Of a stretch of DNA of 64,000 nucleotides, positions 20,091 through 36,443 are shown piece after piece. Each line of letters opens with the position of its first letter. Within the stretch, counting starts at the first letter, position 1. The notes below the pieces were generated by a model. It made no database searches and was not told the DNA's origin. It saw only the letters and a list, made by a program, of their open reading frames with translations. The translations under genes and the position numbers were made by a program. Origin of the DNA: Anaerocolumna cellulosilytica (GTDB taxonomy: Bacteria > Bacillota > Clostridia > Lachnospirales > Lachnospiraceae). The stretch covers positions 2,481,501-2,545,500 of the forward strand of contig NZ_AP023367.1 in assembly GCF_014218335.1 (NCBI RefSeq), read 5' to 3'.

Positions 20091-20345
20091 GATTACAAGA
20101 ATATATGGGCAGAAATAAATACTTACCGCAGTGCAGACCAAGAGATATTACTAAATATCCGTAATGGAGGTTTTCAGAAGGAGGATGGCGGATATAGTAA
20201 TGAATTCTATGAATTATTAGCAGACTATGAAAAAACGGCTGAATTATGCGGCAAATAATACCCTTTTACCGATGAACCAAACTATAAGCGAATTGAAGAA
20301 GTTGTAATGTATGTCAATGAAAAGGTAGTAAAAGGCGAGATATAA
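20091..20345 (+). pseudogene. relic of an unrecognised protein with an in-frame stop
   Basis: One frame reads DYKNIWAEINTYRSADQEIL, then SNEFYELLADYEKTAELCGK, a TAA at 20256, then YPFTDEPNYKRIEEVVMYVN and a final stop at 20343. The composition is protein-like on both sides of the internal stop, so this is a decayed coding region. I do not recognise the family. The rest of the 20070-20470 gap shows nothing else. Confidence 0.5.
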
Positions 20346-20470
20346 AGTTATCCTATCTTTTTTTTGAAAGGAGGCTTTAGCGGATTGACAATGCTTTGTA
20401 ATAGGAGTATCTTTAGATGTAAATATAAGGAATACAAAACAACTATGAAATAATGCAAAGGAGAAAAATA

Positions 20471-21472
20471 GTGAAGGAATTATCTATAACCACCAATCTC
20501 AGGGTACGGACCTATCTATATAATGCATATGTTGAAAGTATAATCAGTAATCTTCCAGGGTATGAAGCTTGGTTTCATAATAATTATATACAATTGGCAT
20601 ATTATAAAAAAAATAATATTAGTGTACTTGAATATTTATCTGGAAGCATATTCGGATGTGTGCCAATGCTAAAGAATAAATCTTATGAAGACATTATGAC
20701 TCTAAAACAGGAAGACGACAAAATACACGAAAAATTTCAGGCGTGGATTGAAAGTGGAAGTTACATATATACTTTTCTAGATGAATTTTATGTCCCAGAA
20801 CGCTCAGCCTACTCAAAATTTAATTATATTCATGATGTGTTAATATACGGTTATGATACTAAAAGAAGGGTATATATGCTGACTGGTTATAATTATCAGG
20901 CCCAATATGTAAAAAGTGAAATAAACTTTGATAACATGATAAAAGCATTTCAAAATGATAGTCCATGTTTAATAGAAATACAAACTAATGATATAAACTA
21001 TAGCTTTAATTTTGATAACTTCAAAACTATGTTAGTTGAATATAGGAATGGTAGTAATAGTAGAGATACGATTGAAATGTACCTGGATATGGATTCCTAT
21101 AATGATACATTTTATGACGATAAATTAGATCATTATGCATATTATGGAATTCAGATATATGAGGGGGTATTAGAATATTTAAGCAATATGCAAATAAAGG
21201 AAGAAGACCTGGATTATCGAATGTTTTATTTGATTTATGAGCATAAAAAAAATATGAAACTTCGAATGGACTATCTTATTAAGGTGAAAAATATGAGGCT
21301 TGCTGATAATATCTTTGATGAATTGATAAATAAGAGTCAGCTTATGTTAAACGTAGCTATAAAATATAAAATGACCTTCAATCCTATATTACTTGATAAT
21401 CTAAAAAGGTATATATGGGAGATTCAAGAAGAAGAAAAGAAAGTTTTAGATAAAATTATAGGAATTATATAA
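20471..21472 (+). CDS. BtrH_N/C39-like protein of biosynthetic-cluster type
   Basis: 333 residues. The middle part (YTFLDEFYVPERSAYSKF, then YIHDVLIYGYDTKRR and YMLTGYN) has the pattern I associate with BtrH_N or C39-peptidase-like proteins encoded near non-ribosomal peptide or butirosin-type pathways; the His and Asp of HDVLIYGYD would be part of a papain-like site. An obvious catalytic Cys is not in its usual position, so it may be non-catalytic. The GTG at 20471 is chosen because AAAGGAG lies 7 bases before it. No carrier-protein or synthetase gene is nearby, but an Sfp-type transferase lies 1.7 kb downstream. Confidence 0.5.
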   Translation: MKELSITTNLRVRTYLYNAYVESIISNLPGYEAWFHNNYIQLAYYKKNNISVLEYLSGSIFGCVPMLKNKSYEDIMTLKQEDDKIHEKFQAWIESGSYIYTFLDEFYVPERSAYSKFNYIHDVLIYGYDTKRRVYMLTGYNYQAQYVKSEINFDNMIKAFQNDSPCLIEIQTNDINYSFNFDNFKTMLVEYRNGSNSRDTIEMYLDMDSYNDTFYDDKLDHYAYYGIQIYEGVLEYLSNMQIKEEDLDYRMFYLIYEHKKNMKLRMDYLIKVKNMRLADNIFDELINKSQLMLNVAIKYKMTFNPILLDNLKRYIWEIQEEEKKVLDKIIGII

Positions 21473-21629
21473 TTGGTGTGTAGAATGAAACAGTAGGTGT
21501 TCTCTTGGTTGGCTATGTATACAGATTATTATTGGAAGAAATCAGACAGTATGTATTGTAGGTATATTAATTATGCCATAATAAGTTTATTCTCTCTTTT
21601 CATAGGTTGGAATACTGAAAAAATTAGTC

Positions 21630-21673
21630 GTATATCCTTTTGTTTTGAGTTATAATAGAACAAAAGGATATAC
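21630..21673. repeat. perfect 15-bp inverted repeat with TATAAT in the loop
   Basis: GTATATCCTTTTGTT (21630-21644) is exactly complementary to 21659-21673. The 14-base spacer contains TATAAT at 21651-21656, and TTTTTAT follows the second arm. It may be a terminator hairpin for the gene ending at 21472 or an operator over a promoter for the gene at 21714. The sequence alone does not decide. Confidence 0.65.
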
Positions 21674-21713
21674 TTTTTATAAGAAATGTTATCTAAAGAT
21701 TGGAGTTGTTTTT

Positions 21714-22379
21714 ATGCCAATAGAGAATTATGGGGTTTTAAAGGGAATTGTTCTTAATGGGAAGGAAGAAAGAGACTATAACAAACCTCATTATCAAATC
21801 CACATTAGGGGTGAAAAGAATACAAATTACCGTGCAGCAATTAATGTAATGTCAGGTCCGAAACATATGGGTTCTAAGGTATTATATTATGCAGAGGAAG
21901 AATTTGTGAGTCCTGTTTTAGAAAAGCTAAACAGTCTAAAGTATGGATTTACGCCTATCAATAAGAAAAATGAGACGTTGGCACTGGATTATATCCGTGG
22001 CAGCATTATTAGCAACCCTGCTAAAATGAAACCTCTGCCTCATGATAAAGCCGGAAAAGATAATGACTTGAACGATTATTTGCATAAATATGTAGATAGG
22101 GCAATGCAGGAAAAAAAACCTTCCTCCACTATTTATGTATACGGCTCTTTATTTTTGTCAAAAGGTGAAACAGATGACATATTTCATTTCGCACCCCCCA
22201 TTGGCATTCACAACATCCATATGAATCAAGGAAATGACAGGAAAGGACCATGGGTAAAAGATAACGGTATATGGCAGGACGGTGGCATCTTAATACAGAT
22301 GAGGAGTCATTGGATTGGAATATTTCTGGCATTCCAGACTCAAGCCTGGTGTACAGATGATTATGGGCATCCTGTATAA
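21714..22379 (+). CDS. YukJ/DUF2278-family protein
   Basis: About 221 residues. It starts MPIENYGVLKGIVLNGKEER; HYQIHI, NYRAAINVMS, IYVYGSLF, GIHNIHMNQGN and DGGILIQMRSHWIGIFLAFQ are the hallmarks of YukJ (DUF2278) proteins. The family is cytosolic and uncharacterised, about 220 residues long, so this copy is complete. The ATG at 21714 follows TTGGAG; the frame open from 21645 runs back into the inverted repeat and is unlikely to be used. Confidence 0.82.
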   Translation: MPIENYGVLKGIVLNGKEERDYNKPHYQIHIRGEKNTNYRAAINVMSGPKHMGSKVLYYAEEEFVSPVLEKLNSLKYGFTPINKKNETLALDYIRGSIISNPAKMKPLPHDKAGKDNDLNDYLHKYVDRAMQEKKPSSTIYVYGSLFLSKGETDDIFHFAPPIGIHNIHMNQGNDRKGPWVKDNGIWQDGGILIQMRSHWIGIFLAFQTQAWCTDDYGHPV

Positions 22380-22469
22380 TCTAAAGAAAGAATTCTATAT
22401 GGGTTAGCTTTTACAAGATTGTGCCTGCTGCCCAAAGTTTGCAGGTATATGAAAGGGATAGATATTAGT

Positions 22470-22961
22470 ATGAGTAAAGACATATTATTCAAAACAGAGA
22501 ACGATGTATTTTCCTACCGTATAGGTGGAATTTTGATTCGGGACAATAAAATATTGCTGCAAAAACCAAAAAATGATGATGGTTTTTCTATCCCGGGCGG
22601 GCACGTAAATTTTGGTGAAGCCAGCTCGGAAGCTTTAATTCGAGAATTTAAAGAAGAAATCAATGCGGATATTAAAATTGAGAGGTTAGTATTTGTTGGT
22701 GAGAATTTTTTTCCATGGGGTAGGAGACCATGTCATCAAATCAGTTTATATTATGCTGTCTCTTTATGCAGTGAGGAACAGATTCCGCTTACTGGTACCT
22801 TTCAGGCAACGGATGATTTAGGAAATGAAAGAATTGATTTGGATTTTAGCTGGATTGCCTTGGATGAACTATCGGCTAAGAAGGTTTATCCAACAAATCT
22901 AATGGAGGATTTAATCTCGTTGCCGGAACAGGTAAAACATTTTATATATGTACAGGAATAA
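22470..22961 (+). CDS. NUDIX hydrolase
   Basis: 163 residues. The Nudix box is complete: GGHVNFGEASSEALIREFKE followed by EINADI, matching Gx5Ex7REUxEExGU closely. The preceding FSYRIGGILIRDNKILLQ is the usual first strand pair. The enzyme is expected to hydrolyse a nucleoside diphosphate linked to another group. I use the ATG at 22470 preceded by AAAGGGA; an upstream in-frame ATG at 22449 is possible. Substrate cannot be assigned. Confidence 0.85.
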   Translation: MSKDILFKTENDVFSYRIGGILIRDNKILLQKPKNDDGFSIPGGHVNFGEASSEALIREFKEEINADIKIERLVFVGENFFPWGRRPCHQISLYYAVSLCSEEQIPLTGTFQATDDLGNERIDLDFSWIALDELSAKKVYPTNLMEDLISLPEQVKHFIYVQE

Positions 22962-23134
22962 ATAGGAGAAACTAAAATCATACAGATATAGTAAATAAAT
23001 GTATAATTGTGTATAATATAACTGGAAGGTTGAAAGAAAAATAGATGAAGGAAAATGCCGCAATGTACAACTTTCAACACTTTTGATTTGTGGCAGTATC
23101 ATAGCATTGTCTGTGATAAACGATGAGGATAAGG

Positions 23135-23818
23135 ATGGAATTATATATACTAAATATTGAAGATGAGATAGAAGCAGCAGAATATCAACGATTATTTGAT
23201 TTTGTAACGCCTGAAAAGAAGGAAAGAATCAAAAGATTTCATTATGACAATGATAAAAAGCGTTCATTATATGGAAATGTGCTAACACGCTATCTCATTA
23301 GCAGAAGATTACATATTGATAATAAGGATATTGTCTTTGAAGCAAACGCCTATGGCAAACCTTATTTAGCAGGAAATAAGGAGCTTTATTTTAATCTTTC
23401 CCATTCCGGAAAGTGGATTTTCTGCGGTTTGGCAGAGAAAGAAATTGGAGTTGATATAGAGCGTCGTGGAAATTGCAAGGAAGACCTTGCAAAGCGATTT
23501 TTTTCAAAAGAAGAGTATAAGTACTTAATGGATACTCCTGAGGAAAAGTGGCGGCAGGTATTTTATGATATCTGGAGTTTAAAAGAAAGTTATATTAAAT
23601 ATAAAGGGTTAGGATTATCCATGCCTCTTAATTCTTTTGCATTTCATTTTGAAGGAGAGAGCGTTTCTTTACATACAGAAGATGAAGAGCAGGAGCTGCC
23701 CTTTGTAAAACGCTATACTTTCGATCCGGAATATAGTATGGCAGTTTGTTCCACAGAGCCACCAACGAATTATATAATCAGGATGCCCCTTCAAATCCTT
23801 GCAAATTGGGGAAAATAA
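23135..23818 (+). CDS. Sfp-type 4'-phosphopantetheinyl transferase
   Basis: About 227 residues, the length of the Sfp class, not of AcpS. Signature motifs are YGKPYLAGNKELYFNLSHSG (substrate loop), GVDIERR (Mg-binding Asp and Glu) and YDIWSLKESYIKYKG (WxxKE-A/S-xxK). It transfers phosphopantetheine from CoA to a serine of carrier-protein domains. No carrier protein is encoded in the window, so its targets must lie elsewhere; the BtrH_N-like gene upstream hints at a secondary-metabolite link. The start at 23135 is preferred to the ATG at 23123. Confidence 0.9.
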   Translation: MELYILNIEDEIEAAEYQRLFDFVTPEKKERIKRFHYDNDKKRSLYGNVLTRYLISRRLHIDNKDIVFEANAYGKPYLAGNKELYFNLSHSGKWIFCGLAEKEIGVDIERRGNCKEDLAKRFFSKEEYKYLMDTPEEKWRQVFYDIWSLKESYIKYKGLGLSMPLNSFAFHFEGESVSLHTEDEEQELPFVKRYTFDPEYSMAVCSTEPPTNYIIRMPLQILANWGK

Positions 23819-23905
23819 TAATAGGAAATTATGGAAGAGGATTTTTTAGACGGAAATTTCATAGAATGAAATAGCAAGAGTTTATAGGTACAAAAACAAC
23901 TTATT

Positions 23906-24002
23906 TGTGCTAAAGCACATTTGGATACACATATTTTTCTCATATTATGCTGTATAATCATGTTAAAATGATATAAAAATAAAATAAATGTGCTAAAACA
24001 CA
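23906..24002. promoter_or_regulatory. twin operator-like palindromes upstream of the pyrimidine operon
   Basis: TGTGCTAAAGCACA (23906-23919) is a perfect palindrome and TGTGCTAAAACACA (23989-24002) is a near-identical second copy. Their centres are 83 bp apart, close to eight helical turns. The second copy lies 20 bp before the -35 box. They are good candidates for a cooperative regulator, possibly the PucR protein encoded in the operon; this assignment is an inference. Confidence 0.55.
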
Positions 24003-24021
24003 GACTTTTTCAAAAAAACAC

Positions 24022-24049
24022 TTGCGTCGATTAGATTTCTGTGTATAAT
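24022..24049 (+). promoter_or_regulatory. probable promoter of the pyrimidine-catabolism operon
   Basis: TTGCGT (24022-24027) and TATAAT (24044-24049) are 16 bp apart. Transcription would start near 24056. A second TATAAT at 23953-23958 has no convincing -35 box. Confidence 0.55.
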
Positions 24050-24105
24050 ATAACTCATAATTAATTTACAGTTAATTTTAAGATATTTTATTTTAACTGA
24101 CCTTT

Positions 24106-24158
24106 AAAAGGGCAATGGTGCTTGCGTCAAGAAGCGCCACTGCCCTTTTTTTGTTTTT
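24106..24158 (+). terminator. strong terminator hairpin in the operon leader; possible attenuator
   Basis: AAAAGGGCA, one mismatch and TGGTGCTT pair with AAGCGCCA, one mismatch and TGCCCTTTT, followed by a T-rich tail to 24158. The hairpin lies after the likely promoter and only 50 bases before the first transporter gene. It would stop transcription of the operon unless overridden. A smaller hairpin (CAGTTAA at 24069, TTAACTG at 24093) precedes it. If the promoter call is wrong, it is simply the terminator of upstream transcripts. Confidence 0.75.
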
Positions 24159-24206
24159 TGTGTGAGCAAAGATTTGCATAATACATTTGAAAGGAGCCAA
24201 GTTCAT

Positions 24207-24977
24207 ATGGACAACAATATTGAGATAAAACTAGGCAACGTAGGAATGATATATCAGGCAGACAGTAATGAGGTCACGGCTTTAACCGGGGTAAGCCTGA
24301 ATATACAAAAAGGGGAATTTATCTCACTGTTAGGTCCTTCTGGATGTGGTAAAACAACGCTTCTTAGAATTGTAGCGGATTTGTTAAAATCCACTTCGGG
24401 TGAAGTACTAATAGAAGGGAATACCCCTGAAACCGCAAGGCTTGACAGGAAATATGGGATGGTTTTCCAAAGTCCTGTATTATATCAATGGCGTACTGTG
24501 AGAAAAAACATTGAGTTACCTTTAGAGCTAATGAAGGTTAAAAAAGAGGATAGAAGGGCAAGAGCTGAAAAAATGTTGGAGCTGGTTGGTTTGTCAAAAT
24601 TTGCAGATCATTATCCGCATCAGTTAAGCGGTGGTATGCAGCAACGTGTGGGAATCGCAAGAGCTTTAGCCATCCGTCCAGAAATCCTTCTAATGGATGA
24701 ACCTTTCTCTGCTTTAGATGAATTTACCAGAGAGAAACTCCATGAAGATTTACTTCGTATCTGGAGTAAAACGAACAAAACAGTTATTTTTGTAACACAT
24801 AATATCGCCGAAGCAGTATTTTTATCTGACCGTGTCTGTGTATTATCGCCCCATCCGGGCAGATTATCCGCAGTTGTTGATATTAATCTATCAAGGCCAA
24901 GAACTCAGGACATAAAGGATTCCCATGAATTCACCGCTTTAGTCTCTAAGGTAAGAAATAGTTTTGAGGGGGTTTGA
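24207..24977 (+). CDS. ABC transporter ATPase (SsuB/TauB-like)
   Basis: 256 residues. Walker A is LLGPSGCGKTTLLRI, the Q-loop is YGMVFQSPVLYQW, the ABC signature is LSGGMQQRVGIARALA, Walker B is ILLMDEPFSALDEF and the switch His is in VIFVTHN. The Q-loop and short C terminus fit the nitrate/sulfonate/pyrimidine (NMT1-type) importer class. AAGGAG before the ATG at 24207 decides the start; the GTG at 24162 is upstream of that site. It energises the importer formed with the next three genes. Confidence 0.92.
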   Translation: MDNNIEIKLGNVGMIYQADSNEVTALTGVSLNIQKGEFISLLGPSGCGKTTLLRIVADLLKSTSGEVLIEGNTPETARLDRKYGMVFQSPVLYQWRTVRKNIELPLELMKVKKEDRRARAEKMLELVGLSKFADHYPHQLSGGMQQRVGIARALAIRPEILLMDEPFSALDEFTREKLHEDLLRIWSKTNKTVIFVTHNIAEAVFLSDRVCVLSPHPGRLSAVVDINLSRPRTQDIKDSHEFTALVSKVRNSFEGV

Positions 24978-24979
24978 TT

Positions 24980-25810
24980 ATGAAATATAAAAAAGTTTTA
25001 TCCTCCAAAGGGATGGTAACCTTTGTGTGGGTGTTAGGTTTAGTGATAGTCTGGGAGCTATTTGCCTACTACATAGAAGGCACAAAAAGAACACCGGAAA
25101 ATATTCTTCCCCACATCTATCAGATTATTGGTTCCATCTTTAGTACCAAACCAGTCAGCAGCGGTCAGACAGCAATTCAGCTTGTTATGTCCAACGCGGG
25201 GGCAACTCTTTTTAGGGCAGGAATTGGTTTTTTAATTGGTATGACTGGTGGTTTTCTCCTGGCCTTACTTATGAATCTGTCCGGTATTGTTGAAAAGATA
25301 GCATTTCCTTATCTTATGATTATTCAGATGATTCCCATTCTTGGTATGGCACCGATTGTTCTTGCAATTACAAAGGATATTGGAGTAAGCCGTATGGTTA
25401 TTGCAGCCATCTTAACTTTTTATCCAGTATCTACCAATACGTTGGCTGGTTTTAAATCCGTAGAAAAAGAGAAGCACGATTTGATGCATATATGTGCTGC
25501 CAATCCGTTTCAAATATATACGAAGACGTTAATTCCTTCCTGTATCCCCTACTTTTTCACGGGATTAAAAATATCCGCACCAATGGCTATTACAGCTTCA
25601 ATTCTGGTAGACACCTTACAAGGAGACGGTGGATTAGGGGTTATGCTTTCCCAGTCATTAAAACATGCCATGTCAATCTATGTATTTTGGCAAATCGTAA
25701 TATTCAGTGCCGCTATCGGTATTTTAAGTTTTTATATGATGGGAGTTATTGAAAAGATATTTTTACCTCATAAACGCAGCAGAAGTAATGGAAAGAAGGT
25801 GGAAGAATAA
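24980..25810 (+). CDS. ABC transporter permease, first subunit (SsuC-like)
   Basis: About 276 residues with six probable membrane helices. The cytoplasmic coupling loop is visible as HDLMHICAANPFQIYTKTLI followed by PSCIPYFFTGLKIS, the EAA-type motif of BPD_transp_1 permeases. It begins two bases after the ATPase stop, with GAGGGGG as ribosome site, and its stop overlaps the ATG of the second permease (TAATG). Different permease genes in tandem indicate a heterodimeric channel. Confidence 0.9.
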   Translation: MKYKKVLSSKGMVTFVWVLGLVIVWELFAYYIEGTKRTPENILPHIYQIIGSIFSTKPVSSGQTAIQLVMSNAGATLFRAGIGFLIGMTGGFLLALLMNLSGIVEKIAFPYLMIIQMIPILGMAPIVLAITKDIGVSRMVIAAILTFYPVSTNTLAGFKSVEKEKHDLMHICAANPFQIYTKTLIPSCIPYFFTGLKISAPMAITASILVDTLQGDGGLGVMLSQSLKHAMSIYVFWQIVIFSAAIGILSFYMMGVIEKIFLPHKRSRSNGKKVEE

Positions 25811-26652
25811 TGGAAGCAGGAAATGTATTCACTCTGGTACAGAAGAAAAAGAGAGTGAAAGCCAGAGGAAAAATAAATTCTGTTGTATCATTTTTATATC
25901 CGGTTGCTTTCGGAGCTCTGCTAATTATTCTCTGGCAGACAGAAATACTTCATAAAATAATCGGAACAGATACTTTTACACTCCCTTTGCCTAGCAGAAT
26001 ATTTGCTATTATCGGAGAGAACTTTCCTAAGGTTATAACCAATGTGCAGGCAACAGTTATAGTGGCTTTGTGTGGACTATTGCTTGGTTCTTTGTTTGGA
26101 TATTTTGTAGCAATCATTGCAACAGTCTTTCCTAAATGGGGTGCGGGTGGACTTAACATTGTATCTGCCTTTAATGCAGTCCCTATTGTTGCACTTGCTC
26201 CGGTTATTACCAACTGGACAAAAGATGTAAGCAGCGATGCCAATACCAGAAGTATGTTTGCAAAAGCACTGGTGGTTATGGTGGTGTGTACGGCATCAAT
26301 GAGTGTAAATGCATTTCGTGGATTAACAGAAATGACACCGTTTTCAGAGGATTTGATGAAAACTTATGCTGCCGGTAGGTTTGAAACCTTTGTAAAACTT
26401 AGACTTCCCAATAGTATACCCTATGTTTTTACAGCTCTGCGGGTAAGTGTACCGGCTAGCGTCATCAGTGCCCTAGTTAGCGAGTATTTTGCAGAATATA
26501 TAATTGGTGTCGGCAGACAGATTAGAGAAAATATTGTTCTTGCCCAATATGCAACTGCATGGGCGTATATTACAGTCGCATGTTTTATCGGAATAGTAAT
26601 GTATGCTATTTTAATGGTTGTTGAAGGTGTTTTGTTGAAAAACCGCAGATAA
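25810..26652 (+). CDS. ABC transporter permease, second subunit (SsuC-like)
   Basis: 280 residues, six probable membrane helices. The EAA-type loop is MKTYAAGRFETFVKLRLPNS followed by IPYVFTALRVS. It is clearly related to, but distinct from, the first permease, as in thiamin-precursor (ThiX-like) and hydantoin/pyrimidine importers, where two permeases pair. Translation is coupled to the upstream gene by the one-base overlap. The 108 bases to the binding-protein gene contain a short hairpin. Confidence 0.88.
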   Translation: MEAGNVFTLVQKKKRVKARGKINSVVSFLYPVAFGALLIILWQTEILHKIIGTDTFTLPLPSRIFAIIGENFPKVITNVQATVIVALCGLLLGSLFGYFVAIIATVFPKWGAGGLNIVSAFNAVPIVALAPVITNWTKDVSSDANTRSMFAKALVVMVVCTASMSVNAFRGLTEMTPFSEDLMKTYAAGRFETFVKLRLPNSIPYVFTALRVSVPASVISALVSEYFAEYIIGVGRQIRENIVLAQYATAWAYITVACFIGIVMYAILMVVEGVLLKNRR

Positions 26653-26731
26653 ATGCAGGAAATCAACTGATATATAATACGAATTTAAACTTAAAAACAA
26701 AAAGCAAGTGTGAAAGTGCTCAATAATTGTA

Positions 26732-26747
26732 TGCCGCCGAAGCGGCA
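26732..26747 (+). other. compact intercistronic hairpin
   Basis: TGCCGC (26732-26737), loop CGAA and GCGGCA (26742-26747) form a GC-rich stem directly before the ribosome site of the binding-protein gene. Such a stem could stabilise the downstream message or tune translation. It has no T-tract and is not a terminator. Confidence 0.55.
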
Positions 26748-26760
26748 GAGGGAGGTTATT

Positions 26761-27903
26761 ATGAGAAAAAAAGTTTGGTTTACAATGATATCGTTGGTAC
26801 TTATTTTAGCATTAACTGCTTGTAGCAGTAATACACCGGCATCTAGTTCAGGTAATAATGCAGGTACATCCGGAGTAAGTAAGGATAGTGAAACCTCAGA
26901 TGCATATTTTGATAAAGGCACGGCAGTAAAAGATATTATAGCTAAAGCCAGCTCAGAAGGTAAAGTGGGTAACTGGGGACTAGGCAATGAATATGAAGTT
27001 CAAGCACTTTTAACTAAGTACGGTCAACCGACTACTTACTTAAGCCAGGCTTTTGATATGGATGGTTTTGATGATGATTCCATTCTGCTTGCTTCTGCTA
27101 TGACTTATAATGAATATGGGCTTGTCGTAAATGCGTATGACGGTGGTTACGATTATGGCGATAAGGTCGGCTTTATAGATATGAATGATGAAGGTGTTGC
27201 TATGTTAGAAGATAATATTTTTACCACAAAAGCGTTTGCGAGCGAGAATCCCAATACAGTAAAAGCATTTATCTATGCTTCTATGAAAGGCTGGGAATAT
27301 GCCTGTGAAAATCCGGAAGAAGCAGCAGAAATTGTTTATAAATATGGATCTTCTGTATCTACCGAACACCAGGCCTATATGGCAAGTGAAGTTAAGAAGC
27401 TGATAGAGACAGATACAACCGGTGCTTCTGTAACTGATTACGGTAAGATGGATGAAGCAGCCATGCAGCAGACGCTTGACTTGGCAAAAGAATACATTAA
27501 GCTGGATGATTCTGCTGCAGCAGATAAGTTAAAAGCATTATCCTTAGAGGATATCAGAGATACTACTTATTGGGAAGGTGCCAATGCTTCAATAGACGGT
27601 AACTTCGGTCCTCTTGAAAAAACAAGTGTTTCCATTCAGCTAAAATGGCTGCCCCAGGCACAGTTTATGGGTTATTACGTAGCACTTGAAAAAGGTTATT
27701 ATAGCGAAGTAGGCTTAGAAGTTAAAATCGTACCCGGCGGTGGTGATATCGGTGAAACAACGGCCGTATATAATGGTTCTGTTGACTTTGGTGTAACTTG
27801 GGTATCTAATCTGATCGCTGCGAATGCTGGTGGAATGGATTTATTAGAAGTGGCACAGGTATATCAGCGTTCCGGTCTGGTATTGATATACAAGACGAAT
27901 TAA
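26761..27903 (+). CDS. ABC substrate-binding lipoprotein, circularly permuted NMT1/SsuA-type
   Basis: 380 residues. A lipoprotein signal (ISLVLILALTAC, Cys21) and a Ser/Gly linker come first. From residue about 69 the protein shows what is normally the second part of NMT1-type binding proteins: KVGNWGLGNEYEVQALLTKY, LASAMTYNEYG, FIDMNDEGVAMLEDNIF and GWEYACENPEEAAEIV. From residue about 287 to the end comes the normal first part: VSIQLKWLPQAQFMGYYVAL, EKGYYSEVGLEVKIVPGG, VDFGVTWVSNL and QVYQRSGLVLIYKTN. The parts are therefore exchanged, with the break at the inter-lobe hinge. GGGAGG precedes the ATG. It should bind a pyrimidine or hydantoin-like compound outside the cell. Confidence 0.85.
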   Translation: MRKKVWFTMISLVLILALTACSSNTPASSSGNNAGTSGVSKDSETSDAYFDKGTAVKDIIAKASSEGKVGNWGLGNEYEVQALLTKYGQPTTYLSQAFDMDGFDDDSILLASAMTYNEYGLVVNAYDGGYDYGDKVGFIDMNDEGVAMLEDNIFTTKAFASENPNTVKAFIYASMKGWEYACENPEEAAEIVYKYGSSVSTEHQAYMASEVKKLIETDTTGASVTDYGKMDEAAMQQTLDLAKEYIKLDDSAAADKLKALSLEDIRDTTYWEGANASIDGNFGPLEKTSVSIQLKWLPQAQFMGYYVALEKGYYSEVGLEVKIVPGGGDIGETTAVYNGSVDFGVTWVSNLIAANAGGMDLLEVAQVYQRSGLVLIYKTN

Positions 27904-27935
27904 TATTTTAACTAAATAAGTGTAAATAAAACATC

Positions 27936-27989
27936 AAGGAGGAGAAGCATTTACTTGCCTCAGTTAATAGTAGATGCTTTTCCTTTCTT
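27936..27989 (+). terminator. hairpin between binding-protein and hydA genes
   Basis: AAGGAGGAGAAGCAT (27936-27950) pairs with ATGCTTTTCCTTTCTT (27974-27989), with several G-T pairs and a 23-base loop. The second arm is U-rich in the RNA. It may be a weak terminator or processing stem that separates transporter from enzyme expression. Confidence 0.45.
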
Positions 27990-28068
27990 ATACCCTGAAT
28001 AAGAAATAATATCTAAAGGATTAGGGTGTAATTATCTGATAAACACGTAAGCAGCAAGGAGGAAGTAT

Positions 28069-29433
28069 ATGGATTTATTAATTAAAAATGGAACACTTAT
28101 CAACTCAAAAGAGAATAGTAGAGCAGATATTGCAGTAGAAAATGGCAAAATCACAGCTATTGGAAAAGATCTGCAGGCGAAAGAAAAGACAGAAATTGTA
28201 GACGCAGCTGGTAAACTGGTATTGCCGGGAGCAATTGATGTTCATACGCATCTTGCCATGCCTTTTGGAGGCACAATATCAGCAGATGGTTATTTTTCCG
28301 GTACCAGAGCGGCAGCCTGTGGCGGGACAACTACGGTATTTGATTTTGCATTGCAGGATTTCAATGAAAATCTGGTGGATACAGTAAAAAGAAGGGACGC
28401 TCTGGCAGCCCCTGAAGCGGCGGTTGATTATGCCTTTCACGTAGGTGTTAAAGATGTACATGGTGATTTACTGAATTCCATGACCGAAGCGGTTGCATAT
28501 GGAGTTCCTTCCTTTAAAGTATTTATGGTGTATGATTTTGGTGTTACAGATGGTGTGTTTTATCAGATACTTGAAAAGGCAAAAGAATGTGGAGCACTAA
28601 TTAGCGTTCATGCAGAAAATAAAGAAATCATAAATGTGCTTACAGAGCGTTACTTATCTCAAGGAAAAACCAGTGCATGGTATCATTATAAGTCCAGGCC
28701 GGAATTCGTAGAGGCAGAAGCGGACTATCGTGCTATAAAATGGGCGAAGTCTTTAAATACATCCTTATATATTGTTCATCTTGCTAATAAAGAAGGAGTT
28801 GAAATGGTAACTAGAGCTAAAGAGGAAGGGTATGAAATCTATGCGGAAACCTGCCCTCAATACCTGCATTTTACCAAGGAAGTATACAAAAGAGAAGATG
28901 GACGTAATTTTGTGTGCTCTCCGCCAATCAAAGGAGCAGAAAGTAAGGATGCACTATGGGAAGCTATCAAAAGAGGAGATATTGATACAATCGCTACAGA
29001 CCATTGTCCGTTCCAAAGCTATGAAAAAGACTGGGGAAAAGATGATTTTACCAAGATTCCCAATGGCTGTGCAGCCATAGAAAATATGTATCCCTATATG
29101 CTGGCAGCTGCGAATGCCGGAAAGATTAGTTTCCAAAAAGCGGTAGAGTTATGCTGTGAAAACCCTGCAAGAATATTTGGCTGCCAGGAAAAAGGGTTCT
29201 TAAGTGTAGGAAAAGATGCAGATATTGTAATATATGATACCAACAAAGATTTTACCATAACCTGTGAATCCATGCATTCGGATTATGACCACACCATATG
29301 GGAAGGGTTAAACCTTCATGGATACCCTGTTCAGACCTATTCCAGAGGCAGATTGGTATACGATAAGGGAGAATTTGTAGGAGAAGCAGGCTGGGGTAAA
29401 TTAGTCAAACGTGTCCCTCGGGTTACATCTTAA
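28069..29433 (+). CDS. hydA: dihydropyrimidinase/D-hydantoinase
   Basis: 454 residues, full length. Metal ligands of the amidohydrolase barrel are in place: DVHTHLAMPF (HxH), PSFKVFMVYDF (the Lys that is carbamylated), SVHAENKEI, YIVHLANKEG and IATDHCPF (final Asp). The enzyme opens the ring of dihydrouracil or dihydrothymine to N-carbamoyl-beta-amino acids. The neighbouring dehydrogenase and carbamoyl amidase make pyrimidine breakdown the likely role, over general hydantoin use. AAGGAGG precedes the ATG. The ring-opening step is cytosolic. Confidence 0.93.
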   Translation: MDLLIKNGTLINSKENSRADIAVENGKITAIGKDLQAKEKTEIVDAAGKLVLPGAIDVHTHLAMPFGGTISADGYFSGTRAAACGGTTTVFDFALQDFNENLVDTVKRRDALAAPEAAVDYAFHVGVKDVHGDLLNSMTEAVAYGVPSFKVFMVYDFGVTDGVFYQILEKAKECGALISVHAENKEIINVLTERYLSQGKTSAWYHYKSRPEFVEAEADYRAIKWAKSLNTSLYIVHLANKEGVEMVTRAKEEGYEIYAETCPQYLHFTKEVYKREDGRNFVCSPPIKGAESKDALWEAIKRGDIDTIATDHCPFQSYEKDWGKDDFTKIPNGCAAIENMYPYMLAAANAGKISFQKAVELCCENPARIFGCQEKGFLSVGKDADIVIYDTNKDFTITCESMHSDYDHTIWEGLNLHGYPVQTYSRGRLVYDKGEFVGEAGWGKLVKRVPRVTS

Positions 29434-29508
29434 GTTACTGCAAACCTAATAAGGATATAAGATTCATGAAGTCTAAATTATGAATTCATAAGATAGGAGA
29501 TGACAGAT

Positions 29509-31014
29509 ATGCCGGTAAACCAATTGTATGCAGATATATTTTTAACACAAGAGTCAGCCAGGTGCCTTTTATGCCACGCACCGGCGTGTACAAGTGCCTG
29601 TAGTGAAAAACTTGATCCGGCAGGCTTTATCCGTGCCGTTAGATTTGAAAATAAGCAAAACAGTTATAGGCACATAAAAACTTCTGCTTGTGAAAGCTGT
29701 GATGCACCTTGTGAAAAAGCCTGTATTCACTACGATTTTTCCATCCGTATACGGGAAATGGCACAGTTAGCACGAACGCGAGAAACAAAAGCAAAAGAGG
29801 CAGATCTTTCCATTGATTTTTGTGGTATCCCCTGTGAGAATCCTTTTTTCTTATCTTCGTCTGTAGTTGCCAGTAATTACGAAATGTGTGCAAATGCTCT
29901 ACGAGCAGGCTGGGGTGGTATTGTATTTAAAACCATAGGTTTTTTACAACCAAAAGAAGTATCTCCAAGGTTTGATGCTACAAAGAAGGAAGGCACCCCT
30001 TTCGTTGGCTTTCGAAATCTGGAACAGATTGCAGAACATGCATTGGAGGAAAATCTTTTTTATTTAAAGAAATTAAAGGAAGACTTTCCGACTAAAATAA
30101 TAGTAGCATCCATAATGGGTCAGACCGATGAGGAATGGACGGAGCTTGCTAAGAGGGTAACAGATACGGGGGTTGATATGATTGAATGTAACTTTTCCTG
30201 TCCTCACATGTCTGCCCATGGTCTTGGTGCGGATGTTGGTCAGACTCCGGAGTTAGTAAAACATTATACGGAACTTACAAAAAAAGGTACCCATCTGCCT
30301 GTACTGGCTAAAATGACTCCTAATATCGGACATATGGAAATACCTGCCATTGCAGCTATGGAGGGTGGTGCTGACGGTATTGCGGCCATCAATACGATTA
30401 AGAGTATCAGTGGTTTAGAGCTTGGGAAGATGGCTCCGCCTCCGCATATTGACGGAAAATCTGCCGTTTCCGGTTATTCTGGTAAGGCAGTAAAGCCAAT
30501 TGCTTTACGTTTTATTCATGATATTGCAAAACACGAAAGGTTAAAAGGTGTGCCTATCAGCGGTATGGGCGGTATTGAAACCTGGTATGATGCAGCAGAG
30601 TTTATTGCCTTAGGCTGTGAAAATATTCAGATAACAACTGCTGTTATGCAGTATGGTTACCGTATCATTGATGATTTGATTTCAGGACTTAAAAACTATA
30701 TGGCGGAAAACGGCTATAAAAATCTGAAAGAGTTTGCAGGCAGTGCCTTGTCGAATCTGGTAAATGCTGATAAACTGGACAGAGATACAGTTGTATATCC
30801 GGTTATTGATAAAGAAAAATGTATCGGCTGTGGAAGATGTTATATATCCTGTGCAGATGCAGGACACCAGGCAATTCGTTATAATGAAGAGACTAAAAAA
30901 ACGCAGGTACTTGCAAAAGACTGTGTAGGATGTCATCTATGTCTGTTGGTTTGTCCCTGCACAGCAATCAGCACGGGAAAGAGAGTCAGAAAACCGGCAC
31001 ATATGACCGTATAA
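29509..31014 (+). CDS. dihydropyrimidine dehydrogenase, PreA type, with N-terminal Fe-S domain
   Basis: 501 residues. The C-terminal 400 match PreA: an FMN barrel with ECNFSCPHMSAHGLGADVGQ, VLAKMTPNI and GMGGIETWYDAAEFI, then two [4Fe-4S] motifs, CIGCGRCYISC and CVGCHLCLLVCPC. The first 95 residues carry another Cys cluster (ARCLLCHAPACTSACSEKLD and CESCDAPCEKAC) resembling the N terminus of PreT/GltD, but the FAD and NAD(P)H domains of PreT are absent. It should reduce uracil or thymine to the dihydro form. The electron donor is unclear. TAGGAG sets the ATG at 29509. Confidence 0.88.
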   Translation: MPVNQLYADIFLTQESARCLLCHAPACTSACSEKLDPAGFIRAVRFENKQNSYRHIKTSACESCDAPCEKACIHYDFSIRIREMAQLARTRETKAKEADLSIDFCGIPCENPFFLSSSVVASNYEMCANALRAGWGGIVFKTIGFLQPKEVSPRFDATKKEGTPFVGFRNLEQIAEHALEENLFYLKKLKEDFPTKIIVASIMGQTDEEWTELAKRVTDTGVDMIECNFSCPHMSAHGLGADVGQTPELVKHYTELTKKGTHLPVLAKMTPNIGHMEIPAIAAMEGGADGIAAINTIKSISGLELGKMAPPPHIDGKSAVSGYSGKAVKPIALRFIHDIAKHERLKGVPISGMGGIETWYDAAEFIALGCENIQITTAVMQYGYRIIDDLISGLKNYMAENGYKNLKEFAGSALSNLVNADKLDRDTVVYPVIDKEKCIGCGRCYISCADAGHQAIRYNEETKKTQVLAKDCVGCHLCLLVCPCTAISTGKRVRKPAHMTV

Positions 31015-31038
31015 ACAGCAGAAGGAGTCACAGTTTAT

Positions 31039-32205
31039 ATGGCAATTACACTATCTAGATTATTTGCTAATTCAGAGAAAAATTATAATATAAAGCTCAT
31101 AGCGGGTCAAAGAGGAATGAAGAATCTGGTTCGATGGGTGCATATGGTGGAAGATCGGGAAGTTCCGGGATTCTTACACGGGAATGAGTTGATTCTTACA
31201 ACCGGAATTGCACAAACCGGCACACAGTGGATAGAGATTTTTGTAAAAAATCTAAGAAAACATGGGGCAATAGGATTGATTTTAAATGTTGGCCCATATA
31301 TCAATTCGATACCCAGGGAGGTAATTACGTATTGTGATGATAATGAATTTCCCCTATTTACGGTACCTTGGGAAATCCATCTAATTGATGTTACCTTTGA
31401 TTTTTGTCATCGAATTATTGCGAATGAAGAGAATGAAACCAGTATAGCTACTGCCTTTCGTAACCTGATATTTTCACCTGGGAATAGGGAGGCTTATGTC
31501 AGTGCCTTAGAACGCAGAGGATTCCATAACCATGGAGAATATACCCTGCTATTGATGCAGGCAGCTAGAAACGGCACACTGATATCCGGCGACGAATGGC
31601 ATAATATCCAGTTTACCATGCAAAGTGTATTAAAGAATATTGATAAGCCCTTTTGCATTTTTGACCAGGAGAATTATCTTGTTATGACTGCATCAGGAGT
31701 AAATAGTACGCAGATGGAAGCTTATGCAAAAATTCTAAATAGCGAGTTATTCAATCAATTTAAAAATGTCACTGTTAACGTGGGTATCTCGGATACGGTT
31801 ACAGGCTATTATGATATGCATATCTGTTATAAACAGGCTTTTACGGCTTCCAATACTGCTAAACTTTTAGAGAAACAGATTCTGAACTATCAGGATACAG
31901 GAATCTATAAACTGCTATATGCAGTTGAAGATGTGAGAGTTCTAAGAAGATATATAGACGATACCTTTCATATGATAATAGAGTATGATTCGAGGCATAA
32001 TACAGATTATTTAAATACCTTAAAATGCTATCTAGAAAATAACGGCAGCATACAAAAAGTTTCCAGTCAAATGGAAGTTCATAGAAATACGATTAATTAT
32101 AAGATGAAGTTTATTCGGGAGAACTTTGGAATTAAATTAGAATACAGCGATATTGCAAGCCTTTGGTTGGCTTTTAATATGAAAGAAATAGTAGATAGAA
32201 ACTAA
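31039..32205 (+). CDS. PucR-family transcriptional regulator
   Basis: 388 residues. The N terminus is a PucR domain (LIAGQRGMKNLVRWVHMVED, then GNELILTTGIA and GLILNVG). The C terminus is the PucR-type helix-turn-helix: TLKCYLENNGSIQKVSSQME and VHRNTINYKMKFIRENF. PucR proteins sense purine or pyrimidine breakdown intermediates in several Gram-positives. Its place inside the operon suggests it controls these genes, perhaps through the palindromes at 23906-24002. GAAGGAG precedes the ATG. Confidence 0.88.
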   Translation: MAITLSRLFANSEKNYNIKLIAGQRGMKNLVRWVHMVEDREVPGFLHGNELILTTGIAQTGTQWIEIFVKNLRKHGAIGLILNVGPYINSIPREVITYCDDNEFPLFTVPWEIHLIDVTFDFCHRIIANEENETSIATAFRNLIFSPGNREAYVSALERRGFHNHGEYTLLLMQAARNGTLISGDEWHNIQFTMQSVLKNIDKPFCIFDQENYLVMTASGVNSTQMEAYAKILNSELFNQFKNVTVNVGISDTVTGYYDMHICYKQAFTASNTAKLLEKQILNYQDTGIYKLLYAVEDVRVLRRYIDDTFHMIIEYDSRHNTDYLNTLKCYLENNGSIQKVSSQMEVHRNTINYKMKFIRENFGIKLEYSDIASLWLAFNMKEIVDRN

Positions 32206-32277
32206 TGTGAAATAGAAAACGATTTTCACACCCTAATTTGAGGAAATGCTGTATTTGTATGCAGATGCGGCATACAA
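32206..32277. promoter_or_regulatory. two inverted repeats between pucR-like and aminotransferase genes
   Basis: TGTGAAA (32206-32212) and TTTCACA (32224-32230) form an 11-bp-spaced dyad directly after the regulator stop. TTGTATGC (32255-32262) and GCATACAA (32270-32277) form a second, with a 7-base loop. Their position suggests separate control of the downstream enzymes, either as operators or as RNA stems. Confidence 0.45.
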
Positions 32278-32308
32278 TAAAGAGCGAATAGGAATGGAGG
32301 ATAAACTT

Positions 32309-33631
32309 ATGACTTCTGAAGAAGTAAAAACCATGCAAACCAATTATGTTTTACAATCCTGGTCAAAACAAAAGGGGCTAAATCCCATAGCGATAAAAAG
32401 AGCAGAAGGAATCTACATGTGGGATTTTGATGATAAGAAATACAGCGATATGTCAGCACAGCTAGTCAACCTAAATGTAGGACACGGAAATCGTTATATT
32501 ATAGATGCTATAAAGGAACAGGCTGAACAGTACTGCTATATTTCACCCAGCTATGGCAGTGAGCCAAGAGCAGAGCTTGCAAAAATGCTGATTGAACGTC
32601 TGCCGGATAATATGGGAAAGGTATTCTTTACAAACGGCGGAGCGGATGCCAATGAAAATGCAATAAAGATGGCAAGAATGTATACCGGAAGAGATAAGAT
32701 ATTCTCCAGATACCGTAGTTACCATGGTTCGACCTTTGGTGCAGGTAATCTGACAGGGGAACCGAGAAGATATCCTTTAGAGCCTGGAATACCGGGGTTT
32801 GTGAAGTTCTTTGATCCTTATATTTATCGTGAAAAGATTCCTTTTGAATCTGAGGAAGCAGCGGCAGAATATTATGTGGATAAACTAAGAGAGCAGATTT
32901 GTTATGAAGGTGCTGCCAATGTGGCGGCTATTGTATTAGAAACTGTAACCGGTTCTAATGGTATTATTATTCCACCCAAAGGGTATCTAAAAGGAATCAG
33001 AAATATCTGTGATGAATTCGGAATTATGCTTATTTGTGACGAAGTAATGGCAGGTTTTGGCAGAACTGGTAAGATGTTTGCTTTTGAAAACTGGGATATT
33101 AAGCCGGATATGGTTACCTTTGCAAAGGGAGTTACCTGCGGTTATGTACAGTTGGGCGGTGTGGCAGTCAGCAAAGAAATTGCAGCATATTTTGAAGACA
33201 ATACGCTGCTTTGTGGTCTCACCTACAGCGGTCATCCCTTAGCTTGTGCGGCGGGTGTTGCCTGCCTAAAATTCTATGATGACACAAATATATTAGAAAA
33301 GGTCAATCAAGTGGGTAAAGTGCTTGGTGAGAAGCTGAATGAATTAAAAGAAAAACATGACTGTGTGGGAGATGTACGGTATATCGGTTTGTTCTCAGCA
33401 ATTGAACTGGTTAAATCCAAATCTACAAAAGAACCACTGGTACCATACGGTAGTGACACGGCGGGAATTATGAAAGGTATAATCGGAAGGCTTGCAAAAA
33501 AAGGGTTTATGACCTATTCCCATGAAAATATGATTTTGATTGCACCGCCTCTTATAATAACAGCAGAACAGCTGGTTGAAGAGCTTATTAAAGTGGATGA
33601 AGTATTAACAGAAGTAGATGCAGAAATTTAA
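32309..33631 (+). CDS. class-III aminotransferase, probable beta-alanine transaminase
   Basis: 440 residues. PLP-enzyme motifs: FTNGGADANENAIKMAR, FSRYRSYHGSTFGAGNLTGE, LICDEVMAGFGRTGKMFAFE and VTFAKGVTCGYVQLGG, where the Lys binds PLP. It resembles omega-amino acid:pyruvate transaminases. In this operon the natural substrate is beta-alanine (or beta-aminoisobutyrate), giving malonate semialdehyde; this is inferred from context. The ATG at 32309 follows TGGAGG; two longer in-frame starts lie within or before that site. Confidence 0.87.
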   Translation: MTSEEVKTMQTNYVLQSWSKQKGLNPIAIKRAEGIYMWDFDDKKYSDMSAQLVNLNVGHGNRYIIDAIKEQAEQYCYISPSYGSEPRAELAKMLIERLPDNMGKVFFTNGGADANENAIKMARMYTGRDKIFSRYRSYHGSTFGAGNLTGEPRRYPLEPGIPGFVKFFDPYIYREKIPFESEEAAAEYYVDKLREQICYEGAANVAAIVLETVTGSNGIIIPPKGYLKGIRNICDEFGIMLICDEVMAGFGRTGKMFAFENWDIKPDMVTFAKGVTCGYVQLGGVAVSKEIAAYFEDNTLLCGLTYSGHPLACAAGVACLKFYDDTNILEKVNQVGKVLGEKLNELKEKHDCVGDVRYIGLFSAIELVKSKSTKEPLVPYGSDTAGIMKGIIGRLAKKGFMTYSHENMILIAPPLIITAEQLVEELIKVDEVLTEVDAEI

Positions 33632-33649
33632 GGAGAGGAGCTTTTACAT

Positions 33650-34753
33650 ATGAATTTACAATTTTTTATGCCTACTCGGATTATTATGGGAGAGGATTGC
33701 ATCTTAAAGAATGCGGACGCACTTTATAAGCTGGGAAAAAAGGCGTTGATTGTAACCGGAAGCAAATCTGCAAAGATAAACGGTTCTTTCTCTGATGTTA
33801 CGAATACTTTAGATGTGAACGGTCAGGAATATGCGGTGTTTGATAAGGTTATGGCCAATCCGACCATTGATTGTGTTTACGAAGGAGCAGCCTATGCAAA
33901 GAAGGAAAACGCAGATTTTATTATAGCCATTGGAGGGGGATCCCCAATGGATGCAGCTAAGGCAATTGCTCTTTTAGCCTGCCAGGATATTCCTAGAGAG
34001 AATTTGTTTTCTGGGGAATACGAAGCAAAAGTACTGCCTATGGCATTTATCCCCACAACAGCAGGTACCGGTTCTGAGGTGACACAATACTCTATTTTGA
34101 CCAATGATGCAGCTCGTACGAAAACCACCTTAGCAGCACCATTTTTGTTTCCGGATGTATCTTTTTTAGACAGTAAATACATGGAAGCGTTATCAAAAGT
34201 GACTACTATTAATACGGCAATTGACGCTTTGTCTCACTCTGTGGAAAGCTTTTTATCTGTAAGATCAAACACGTTAACAGAGGTACTGGCGTTAGAGAGC
34301 ATCGGAATTATTGTAAAACAGTTAGAGAATTTAAAGAATTTTACATTAACTAGAGAGGACAGAAGTCAGCTATTGTATGCTTCAACTTTAGGTGGAATGG
34401 TAATTGCACATACAGGAACGACGGCAGTTCATTCTATGGGCTATTCCCTTACGTATTTTAAAGCGATTGACCATGGCCGAGCCAATGGTTTATTGTTAAC
34501 CGAATTTATGAAGCTCGTAGAGAAATTAAGACCTGATAAAATTAAGACTTTGTTAGTTAAAATGGGTTATACATCTCTTTTGGAATTAGAGTCAATTATC
34601 TTTGAATTACTTGGTGATACAGAATCAATAACAGTAGAAGAACTGGAAAGCTATTCAGATATTGCAATAAAAGCAAAAAACATTCCAAATGGAATCGTAG
34701 CTCCTACCAGAGAGGAATTGTTAAATATATACCGGGCTGTTTTTAAAGTATAA
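33650..34753 (+). CDS. iron-containing alcohol dehydrogenase
   Basis: 367 residues of the type III ADH fold. The NAD(P)-binding GGGSPMDAAKA is followed by IPTTAGTGSEVTQYSI and the metal-ligand region (DALSHSVESF, HSMGYSLTYF, DHGRANGLLL). In this setting it most likely reduces malonate semialdehyde to 3-hydroxypropionate, removing the toxic aldehyde and re-oxidising NAD(P)H. The substrate is an inference from gene order. GGAGAGG precedes the ATG, and it begins 19 bp after the aminotransferase. Confidence 0.87.
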   Translation: MNLQFFMPTRIIMGEDCILKNADALYKLGKKALIVTGSKSAKINGSFSDVTNTLDVNGQEYAVFDKVMANPTIDCVYEGAAYAKKENADFIIAIGGGSPMDAAKAIALLACQDIPRENLFSGEYEAKVLPMAFIPTTAGTGSEVTQYSILTNDAARTKTTLAAPFLFPDVSFLDSKYMEALSKVTTINTAIDALSHSVESFLSVRSNTLTEVLALESIGIIVKQLENLKNFTLTREDRSQLLYASTLGGMVIAHTGTTAVHSMGYSLTYFKAIDHGRANGLLLTEFMKLVEKLRPDKIKTLLVKMGYTSLLELESIIFELLGDTESITVEELESYSDIAIKAKNIPNGIVAPTREELLNIYRAVFKV

Positions 34754-35222: not shown

Positions 35223-36443
35223 ATGAGCAGTTGTAACCTGGAACGTTTAAAAGATAAAATAGAGACTTTTGCTAAGTTTGGAGATACCGGAAACGGGGGT
35301 ATCACTCGCTTCTCCCTATCTAGAGAGGCATTGGCAGCAAGAGCTGAATTTGTGAAACGGTGTGAAAGATTGGGGATGATTATTACAACGGATGATATGG
35401 CCAATGTCTATGCCACAATTTCTGGGGAGGAGGGGCTTCCAGCTATTATATCCGGTTCTCATGCTGATTCTGTAAGACAGGGAGGTAATTACGATGGTAT
35501 TCTAGGTGTGCTGACAGCCTTAGAGGCAGCAGAGACTATAGTTACGGAGAAGATTCCTCATCGTCACCCGATAACAGTGGTTATTTGGACGAATGAAGAA
35601 GGTGCACGTTTTGAACCAGCTATGATGTCCTCTGGTGTAATTACGGGCAAATTCGCTAAGGATAAAATGTTAACATCTAAGGATGCGGAAGGTGTAACCT
35701 TTAAGGAAGCCTTAGAAGTAAGCGGCTATATGGGTGAAGAGAAAAACAGGTTATCCGCTGATAAATATATGGCTTGTGTGGAATTGCACATTGAACAAGG
35801 TCCGGTATTGGAAGCAGAAGGAGTAGATATTGGTGTTGTAGAAGGTGTCTGTGGAATGATAAACTATGAATTTACCTTTACAGGACAGGCAGGTCATGCG
35901 GGTACTACTCCAATGAAATACCGTAAGGATGCCTTATATGCAGCAGTGAAAACGATTCAATATCTACATGATGAACTGGATAAATTAGATAGCAAGTTAG
36001 TTTACACAACCGGTAAGATAGCAGCTCATCCTAATATCCACACCATTATACCAGATGTAGTTAAGTTTACTCTGGATGCAAGGCATCAAGATCCGGAAGT
36101 AATTAAGCAGGTATTAGAAATAATCAAAGCTATACCGTCAGAAGTGGAAAAATGCCAGGTAAGTTATCAGGAAGCCTGGTCAAGAGCAACGGTATCTTTT
36201 TATCCGAAATATATAGATTATGTTGAAAGTAATGCCAAAAAGCTGGGTTATACTACAAAGAGACTGTACAGCGGTCCCGGGCATGATGCTCAGTTTATCA
36301 CAGATGTAATACCTACAACCATGATATTTGTGCCAAGTGTAGGCGGACACAGTCATTGTGAAGAAGAATATACACCACTTGAAGCCTGCTTAAAAGGTGC
36401 AAATGTATTGTTAGATACAATACTAAGTATAGATAAAAGTTAG
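35223..36443 (+). CDS. beta-ureidopropionase/N-carbamoyl amino acid amidase (M20 family)
   Basis: 406 residues. Zn ligands and surroundings are clear: ISGSHADSVRQGGNYDGILG (His and bridging Asp), WTNEEGARF (catalytic and bridging Glu), ACVELHIEQGPVLE and the C-terminal GHSHCEEEYTP (His). The middle has the dimerisation-domain segment GQAGHAGTTPM. This is the hydantoinase/carbamoylase subgroup. Together with hydA and the dehydrogenase it should cleave N-carbamoyl-beta-alanine to beta-alanine, CO2 and ammonia. It is the last gene before a terminator. Confidence 0.9.
   Translation: MSSCNLERLKDKIETFAKFGDTGNGGITRFSLSREALAARAEFVKRCERLGMIITTDDMANVYATISGEEGLPAIISGSHADSVRQGGNYDGILGVLTALEAAETIVTEKIPHRHPITVVIWTNEEGARFEPAMMSSGVITGKFAKDKMLTSKDAEGVTFKEALEVSGYMGEEKNRLSADKYMACVELHIEQGPVLEAEGVDIGVVEGVCGMINYEFTFTGQAGHAGTTPMKYRKDALYAAVKTIQYLHDELDKLDSKLVYTTGKIAAHPNIHTIIPDVVKFTLDARHQDPEVIKQVLEIIKAIPSEVEKCQVSYQEAWSRATVSFYPKYIDYVESNAKKLGYTTKRLYSGPGHDAQFITDVIPTTMIFVPSVGGHSHCEEEYTPLEACLKGANVLLDTILSIDKS

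Follow-up and report, generated by a model that had tools for sequence, protein, structure and literature searches.

The window (the whole 64,000-nucleotide stretch of Anaerocolumna cellulosilytica DNA analysed here) carries, at 26761..27903 on the + strand, the gene of a 380-residue NMT1/THI5-like substrate-binding lipoprotein with permuted block order, identified through its open reading frame, profile and PDB matches, block models and BLAST. The frame opens with an ATG at 26761 and closes with a stop at 27901-27903. A ribosome-binding site, GGGAGG (26750..26755), lies 5 bases before the ATG, and residues 1-20 (26761..26820) form a signal peptide followed by the lipid cysteine, Cys21 (26821-26823), in the lipobox LTAC. 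Three genes on the same strand precede it, assigned by Pfam: the ATPase of the same ABC transporter (24162..24977, with ATG 24207 the likelier start), permease 1 (24974..25810) and permease 2 (25810..26652). The binding-protein gene is the fourth of this set, and its export signal (signal peptide and lipobox) together with the neighbouring ATPase and permease genes marks the system as an ABC importer. A first-pass annotation, made from the letters alone, had argued from the signal peptide, the ribosome site and the operon position that this is a working gene, and all three can be seen at the locus.

The genes that follow, all on the + strand, encode enzymes. First comes a PydB-type dihydropyrimidinase/hydantoinase (28069..29433; TIGR02033 482.9 bits, cut-off 393.25) and then a PydAc-like dihydropyrimidine dehydrogenase with two Fe-S parts (29500..31014; NF006183 589.7 bits, cut-off 335, and Pfam), in which neither Pfam nor NCBIfam finds an FAD/NADPH domain. 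Behind a PucR-type regulator (31039..32205; Pfam) lie a class III aminotransferase (32246..33631; family matches), probably a PydD-like beta-alanine aminotransferase; an iron-containing alcohol dehydrogenase (33650..34753; below NCBIfam cut-offs), probably a PydE-like malonic semialdehyde reductase; and a Zn-dependent carbamoylase (35223..36443; TIGR01879 375.7 bits, cut-off 204), probably a PydC-like ureidopropionase. Homologues of PydA, PydB, PydC, PydD and PydE are found together at family level, and 28069-36443 is apparently a complete ferredoxin-type reductive pyrimidine degradation operon with its PucR regulator. The accessible text of PMC7332683 describes the Pyd pathway with a ferredoxin-type PydAc for Clostridium chromiireducens, a species able to grow with uracil as nitrogen source. 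The clusters described there resemble ours in dehydrogenase architecture and in the enzyme set, which here stands beside a transporter; they differ in that 'transporter' and 'permease' have 0 occurrences in the text. Also inside the operon, 34771-35172 encodes a 133-residue protein with a sub-threshold B3 match in Pfam (19.4 versus 30.1 bits) and no NCBIfam match.

Two hairpins flank parts of the transporter set. A long one between the binding-protein and dihydropyrimidinase genes (27936..27989, + strand; -23.2 kcal/mol, z -4.9, equalled by none of 200 shuffles) may be a cap or attenuator of the transporter transcript. Another strong hairpin, followed by a T-rich run, lies just before the ATPase gene at 24106-24149, where a 136-base stretch folds at z -3.6; it would either terminate transcription of the gene before it or act as an attenuator in the leader of the operon. 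There was no Rfam match across 20000-38500, and the promoter/terminator scan did not rise above shuffles.

Because the operon encodes reductive pyrimidine degradation and because the solved relatives of the binding protein include the pyrimidine-binding protein 3ix1 and the pyrimidine-precursor enzyme THI5, the imported ligand is most likely uracil, thymine or a close derivative or reduced form of these. It could instead be a non-pyrimidine, for example hydantoin or an N-carbamoyl amino acid, with the downstream enzymes serving hydantoin use; TIGR02033 (dihydropyrimidinase) and TIGR01879 (carbamoylase) are, after all, families also named for hydantoins. We consider this unlikely, as the same operon holds a dihydropyrimidine dehydrogenase of PydAc architecture and a class III aminotransferase, as do the Pyd clusters in the accessible text of PMC7332683, and the same two solved relatives speak against it. 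A pyrimidine ligand also sits with the gene order of the best 80 of 153 relatives: a permease gene is directly upstream in 80/80 loci, an ATPase gene at most 4 kb away in 76/80, and a dihydropyrimidinase gene directly downstream in 70/80. Among the remaining ten, three (L049, L083, L088) stop no more than 1 kb past the binding-protein gene. The others are seven spirochaete loci, and in five of them dihydropyrimidinase and dehydrogenase matches at 38-45% identity occur on the other strand. At the seven spirochaete loci the link to the pathway is weaker, since the dihydropyrimidinase gene is not directly downstream.

The first-pass annotation had claimed that the two blocks of this protein stand in the reverse of the usual order, and had proposed aligning them separately, building a structure model and looking for the same order in relatives. 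The window protein scores 101.7 bits against PF09084 (NMT1; curated cut-off 20.5), and 65/65 members of A1 match this profile at E <= 0.001. The window protein does not follow the profile as one stretch in its own order. Instead, two stretches are matched in swapped order: profile 2-81 corresponds to the C-terminal residues 300-379 (Pfam scan) and profile 157-216 to residues 127-188 (front part of the protein scanned alone). The solved homologue 4nmy aligns through chain 7-73 with residues 289-356 and through chain 101-287 with residues 58-249, and both 4nmy and 3ix1 show the swap in single-sequence as well as profile searches, the second stretch of 3ix1 being weak. As a control, unswapped sisters from genomes G621, G007 and G288 match PF09084 as one stretch, 2-216. 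Both NMT1 blocks are complete and present once each in the one open reading frame. The block that is second in ordinary members occupies residues 67-274 (26959..27582, +), the linker between the former chain ends residues 275-286 (27583..27618, +; set by the block matches and junctions), and the block that is first in ordinary members residues 287-380 (27619..27900, +), both blocks being delimited by profile, PDB and BLAST matches. The claimed swap is borne out by the separate PF09084 stretches, the 4nmy alignment, the block models and a BLAST comparison with four queries (below), and by block order the window protein is confirmed as a circularly permuted NMT1/THI5-like substrate-binding protein.

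Comparison with an unswapped sister gives the anatomy of the swap. In G621 the order is '...DEITIQLKWLPQAQFMGYYVA...YQRSGLVLVAKKESGVASGKDITNATKVGNWMGGNEYE...DPSYWEEAVK', then stop. A typical permuted protein begins with the signal, a low-complexity spacer and '..I...A...GKVGNWGLGNEYE...DTSYWEAA', and passes through the linker into 'PEKTDVSIQLKWLPQAQFMGYY...YQRSGLVLVYK', then stop; set against G621, this order shows the former C-terminal end running on into what was the start of the mature protein. Across 93 permuted reading frames the gap between the block matches is 5-13 residues, a linker as short as a circular permutant should have, an EK pair (residues 286-287 of the window protein) lies within the gap or at its edge in 93/93, and the tail after the last block is 1-7 residues. 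The break point lies immediately behind the strand 'SGLVLVYK'; in the unswapped sisters that strand continues into '..SGI.(S/T)..DLKGKKVGNW'. This is where the first-pass annotation had put it, at what it called the hinge between the lobes, and we take the strand to be the first hinge strand, or crossing, of a Type II binding protein; the NMT1/THI5 family, matched here by profile and PDB, presumably belongs to that type. Judging from the topology of such proteins and the secondary structure of the model, the new chain ends would lie at a loop.

The AlphaFold2 model that the first-pass annotation had called for, built from an alignment of 65 permuted proteins including the window's, is confident, at a pLDDT of 90.5 and a pTM of 0.88, with pLDDT below 50 at residues 22-46, the spacer after the lipid cysteine. 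In a sequential Foldseek search against the PDB, the top four matches all come from Bacillus subtilis OpuAC; their E values span 2.2e-6 to 7.4e-5, and they superpose loosely (TM 0.34-0.50, rmsd 11.5-15.2). The best 50 of 832 matches also contain further Type II proteins, such as ProX 1sw1 and EgtUC, and no ordinary NMT1 structure of the kind of 4nmy or 3ix1. A permuted Type II chain could produce a list topped by OpuAC. With the OpuAC matches loose and other Type II proteins in the list, this supports, without showing, a model in which the permuted chain would rebuild the Type II fold of the unpermuted protein.

How widely is the swapped order found? Separate block models, scanned over the reading frames of the collected loci, identify 126 distinct frames with both blocks, 93 of them swapped (the window's included) and 33 unswapped. 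Permuted frames score at least 165 (N-block) and at least 362 (C-block) bits, and the best unswapped one, G621, scores 153 and 262. When four unswapped sisters serve as BLAST queries, the order is swapped in 93/93 for each query. A scan of the genome collection confirms 153 relatives, and the best 80 of these 153 are permuted without exception (80/80; 60 Bacillota, 16 Spirochaetota, 4 unassigned), so the search for the same order in relatives that the first-pass annotation had suggested turns out positive. Of 15 genomes of the genus, 8 contain a match at E <= 1e-10; the order is permuted in six, counting the window's own genome, and unswapped in two. In the wider samples, of family, class and phylum, only a few top candidates were scored in each genome, and some copies may have escaped. 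In the family-level sample 16/397 genomes match (own included), each with one match running through both blocks in permuted order; in the class-level sample 12/391 do, eight permuted (own included), three with the unswapped form alone, and one whose match is divided between two contigs; and in the phylum sample of the Treponema genome G405 3/296 do, two permuted and one unswapped. A profile search of 299 genomes of the window's own phylum finds 43 that match, of which only the own genome and G118 match both blocks in permuted order. The plasmid collection holds 140 matching records, all below 60% identity, and in no record does a single place span 80% of the query; the three plasmid records whose block order was examined are all unswapped (3/3).

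A misassembly joining two genes, the concern raised in the first-pass annotation, or a local rearrangement in a single strain could in principle give such a sequence, and we regard the chance of either as negligible. The same order is present in 93 distinct reading frames from many assemblies, a recurrence that excludes misassembly, and the genome that the window comes from is assembled as a single 5.43-Mb contig. A frame artefact is ruled out by the same recurrence.

The unswapped sisters bear on where the permuted form came from. The closest, in G621 (from the Treponema phylum sample), is identical at 65/90 positions (72%) of the N-block and 107/210 (51%) of the C-block, and its operon runs parallel to ours in both transporter (ATPase 68%, permeases 50 and 44%) and enzymes (dihydropyrimidinase 61%, dehydrogenase 56%, carbamoylase 62%, aminotransferase 72%, alcohol dehydrogenase 53%). 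Unswapped proteins also directly adjoin dihydropyrimidinase genes in G007 and G009, have such genes nearby on the other strand in G288, and lie within a similar gene set in Deinococcus taeanensis. In a tree from both blocks (36/93 permuted and 13/33 unswapped rows, with 19 weak distant unswapped rows and the long-branch L145 left out) the order changes once, with 99/98 support, and G621 is the sister row of the permuted group (100/100), on a long branch. The C-block tree alone agrees with one change (99/99). In a quick permease tree, into which L145 was entered with the same reading frame for both permeases, the permuted group forms one side of a branch (SH-aLRT 100, stem 1.33 changes per column) and G621 sits in an unresolved fork, not shown as sister of the permuted group. 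The ATPase tree does not hold the permuted group together and needs four changes.

A tree from the 92 columns of the N-block, taken by themselves, has G621 nested among the permuted proteins, and its starred branches cannot be reconciled with fewer than two changes of order. This placement, and the unequal similarity of the blocks to G621 (72% versus 51%), are what one might cite for a chimera in which the C-block of one binding-protein gene was fused to the N-block of a different, non-sister gene. We find this quite improbable: by identity, G621 is the nearest of the four unswapped sisters for both blocks, the other three show the same gap (52-58% for the N-block versus 42-46% for the C-block), which fits slower change of the N-block, and an AU test on the N-block does not reject one permuted clade (p 0.397). 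With the shared nearest sister and the AU test against it, we disfavour a chimera of two genes.

We therefore return to a single permutation and hold it to be about 85% likely that this is a pyrimidine-importer lipoprotein, permuted at the hinge once, in an ancestor of a Clostridia/Spirochaetota clade, within a pyrimidine-degradation operon. One ancestor of that clade would have had, in its operon for reductive pyrimidine degradation, a binding protein of the ordinary NMT1/THI5-like form. A circular permutation at the hinge of this protein, presumably of single origin, would then have connected its C-terminus, '..DTSYWEAA', by way of a short linker with its mature N-terminus, '..EKTDVSIQLKWLPQ'. 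The chain would have been reopened behind the first hinge strand 'SGLVLVYK', so that the signal peptide and lipid anchor now stand ahead of the former second part. Judged by homology, both lobes would be kept, each contiguous in sequence, with a single covalent crossing between them in place of two and the final strand running out in the hinge, and the permuted protein would presumably still work as a Venus flytrap. The route may have been an in-frame tandem duplication followed by loss of the outer parts. None of the 174 reading frames examined contains a block twice (N-C-N, C-N-C or duplicates), and hence no tandem-duplication intermediate was found; single-block frames number 8 with the N-block only and 2 with the C-block only.

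After its origin the gene seems to have travelled. Spirochaete rows sit among Bacillota rows in the both-block tree, and this, together with the mixed-phylum loci, suggests that the permuted gene spread between phyla. Over the core, dN against eight relatives is 0.09-0.17 (two of the eight, L006 and L016, gave identical dN/dS values and are probably one genome), and dS is mostly saturated or near saturation; Biopython returned a dS of -1 in 11/24 values, and dN alone was used. Such dN values at near-saturated dS argue that the binding-protein gene is under strong purifying selection.

The first-pass annotation knew of no described example in this family. For the family itself this stands: in open-licence PMC papers we found no permuted NMT1/THI5 or pyrimidine-binding protein. 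It does not extend to binding proteins in general, where permutation is already a known kind of event, as the published TpMglB-2 and OpuAC/ProX relations show. The permuted NMT1/THI5 protein is thus new to the described cases, and natural permutation of a binding protein as such is known. According to the accessible text of PMC4990184, TpMglB-2 (Tp0684) of Treponema pallidum is a natural circular permutation of an ABC binding lipoprotein ('Type Ic'). Like our protein, it is a permuted ABC binding lipoprotein with the former first strands near the C-terminus and with relatives in treponemes and Gram-positive bacteria; unlike ours, it has the Type I (Cluster B) fold and binds glucose, and its permutation adds a lobe crossing whereas the window protein should lose one. 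The window protein has no sign of a TpMglB-2-like Type I / Cluster B assignment, its profile and PDB matches being to NMT1/THI5.

OpuAC (2b4l) is described, in the available part of PMC2395249, as forming a circular-permutation family with ProX (1r9l, 1sw1) and the molybdate-binding proteins; the section of that paper on glycine betaine-binding proteins is silent on which form is derived, and the text of the OpuAC structure paper contains neither 'permut' nor 'dislocation' (PMC2861598). The likeness to our case lies in that published permutation relation and in OpuAC providing the four best Foldseek matches; the differences are the glycine betaine ligand and the absence of OpuAC and ProX from the window protein's sequence matches. 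With the ordinary NMT1/THI5-like proteins (PF09084; 4nmy, 3ix1) the window protein shares matches in both blocks and a whole-protein score above the curated cut-off, and it departs from them in its swapped blocks and in a signal peptide and lipid anchor placed ahead of the former second part.

Is the permutation of any use to the cell? The accessible text of PMC4990184 contains the idea that permutation is an adaptation to lipid anchoring. The simple lipobox pattern is present in 83/93 permuted reading frames; of the 10 that lack it, 8 have no lipobox-placed cysteine when inspected by eye, namely the spirochaetal L024, L025, L030, L039, L047, L051 and L056, plus L069. Unswapped sisters such as L011 and L103 do have such a cysteine, and these two facts weaken the lipid-anchoring idea. 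A broader adaptive reading, which strikes us as rather doubtful, is that an anchor and chain ends at the hinge, with the changed permeases, might alter how the tethered protein closes and docks, and that the front part of a binding protein would have been relocated to the C-terminus independently at least twice in the same two groups, TpMglB-2 being the other case. If it were true, such proteins would make up a recurrent class, 'permuted, anchor-at-the-hinge', with both lobes unbroken in sequence.

Two aspects of the distribution deserve attention here: operons of this same type still contain unswapped orthologues, and the permuted form shares its two bacterial groups (Clostridia-type Gram-positives and spirochaetes) with TpMglB-2. 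Because permuted and unpermuted orthologues both survive, the ancestral form, the break point, the linker and the partner permeases can be compared directly, and the questions of why binding proteins become permuted and whether the permease follows are open to direct tests. Such proteins may be under-recognised, since profile annotation sees two fragments, and the permuted protein offers a natural template for permuted biosensor scaffolds.

Two smaller observations concern individual loci. One of the eight permuted genomes of the class-level sample, G353, carries both forms, a permuted member and an unswapped one (L114, G353:C49, and L115, G353:C36), with no dihydropyrimidinase match within 19 kb around the unswapped member. 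The seven spirochaete loci whose proteins have no lipobox-placed cysteine are the same seven at which no dihydropyrimidinase gene lies directly downstream.
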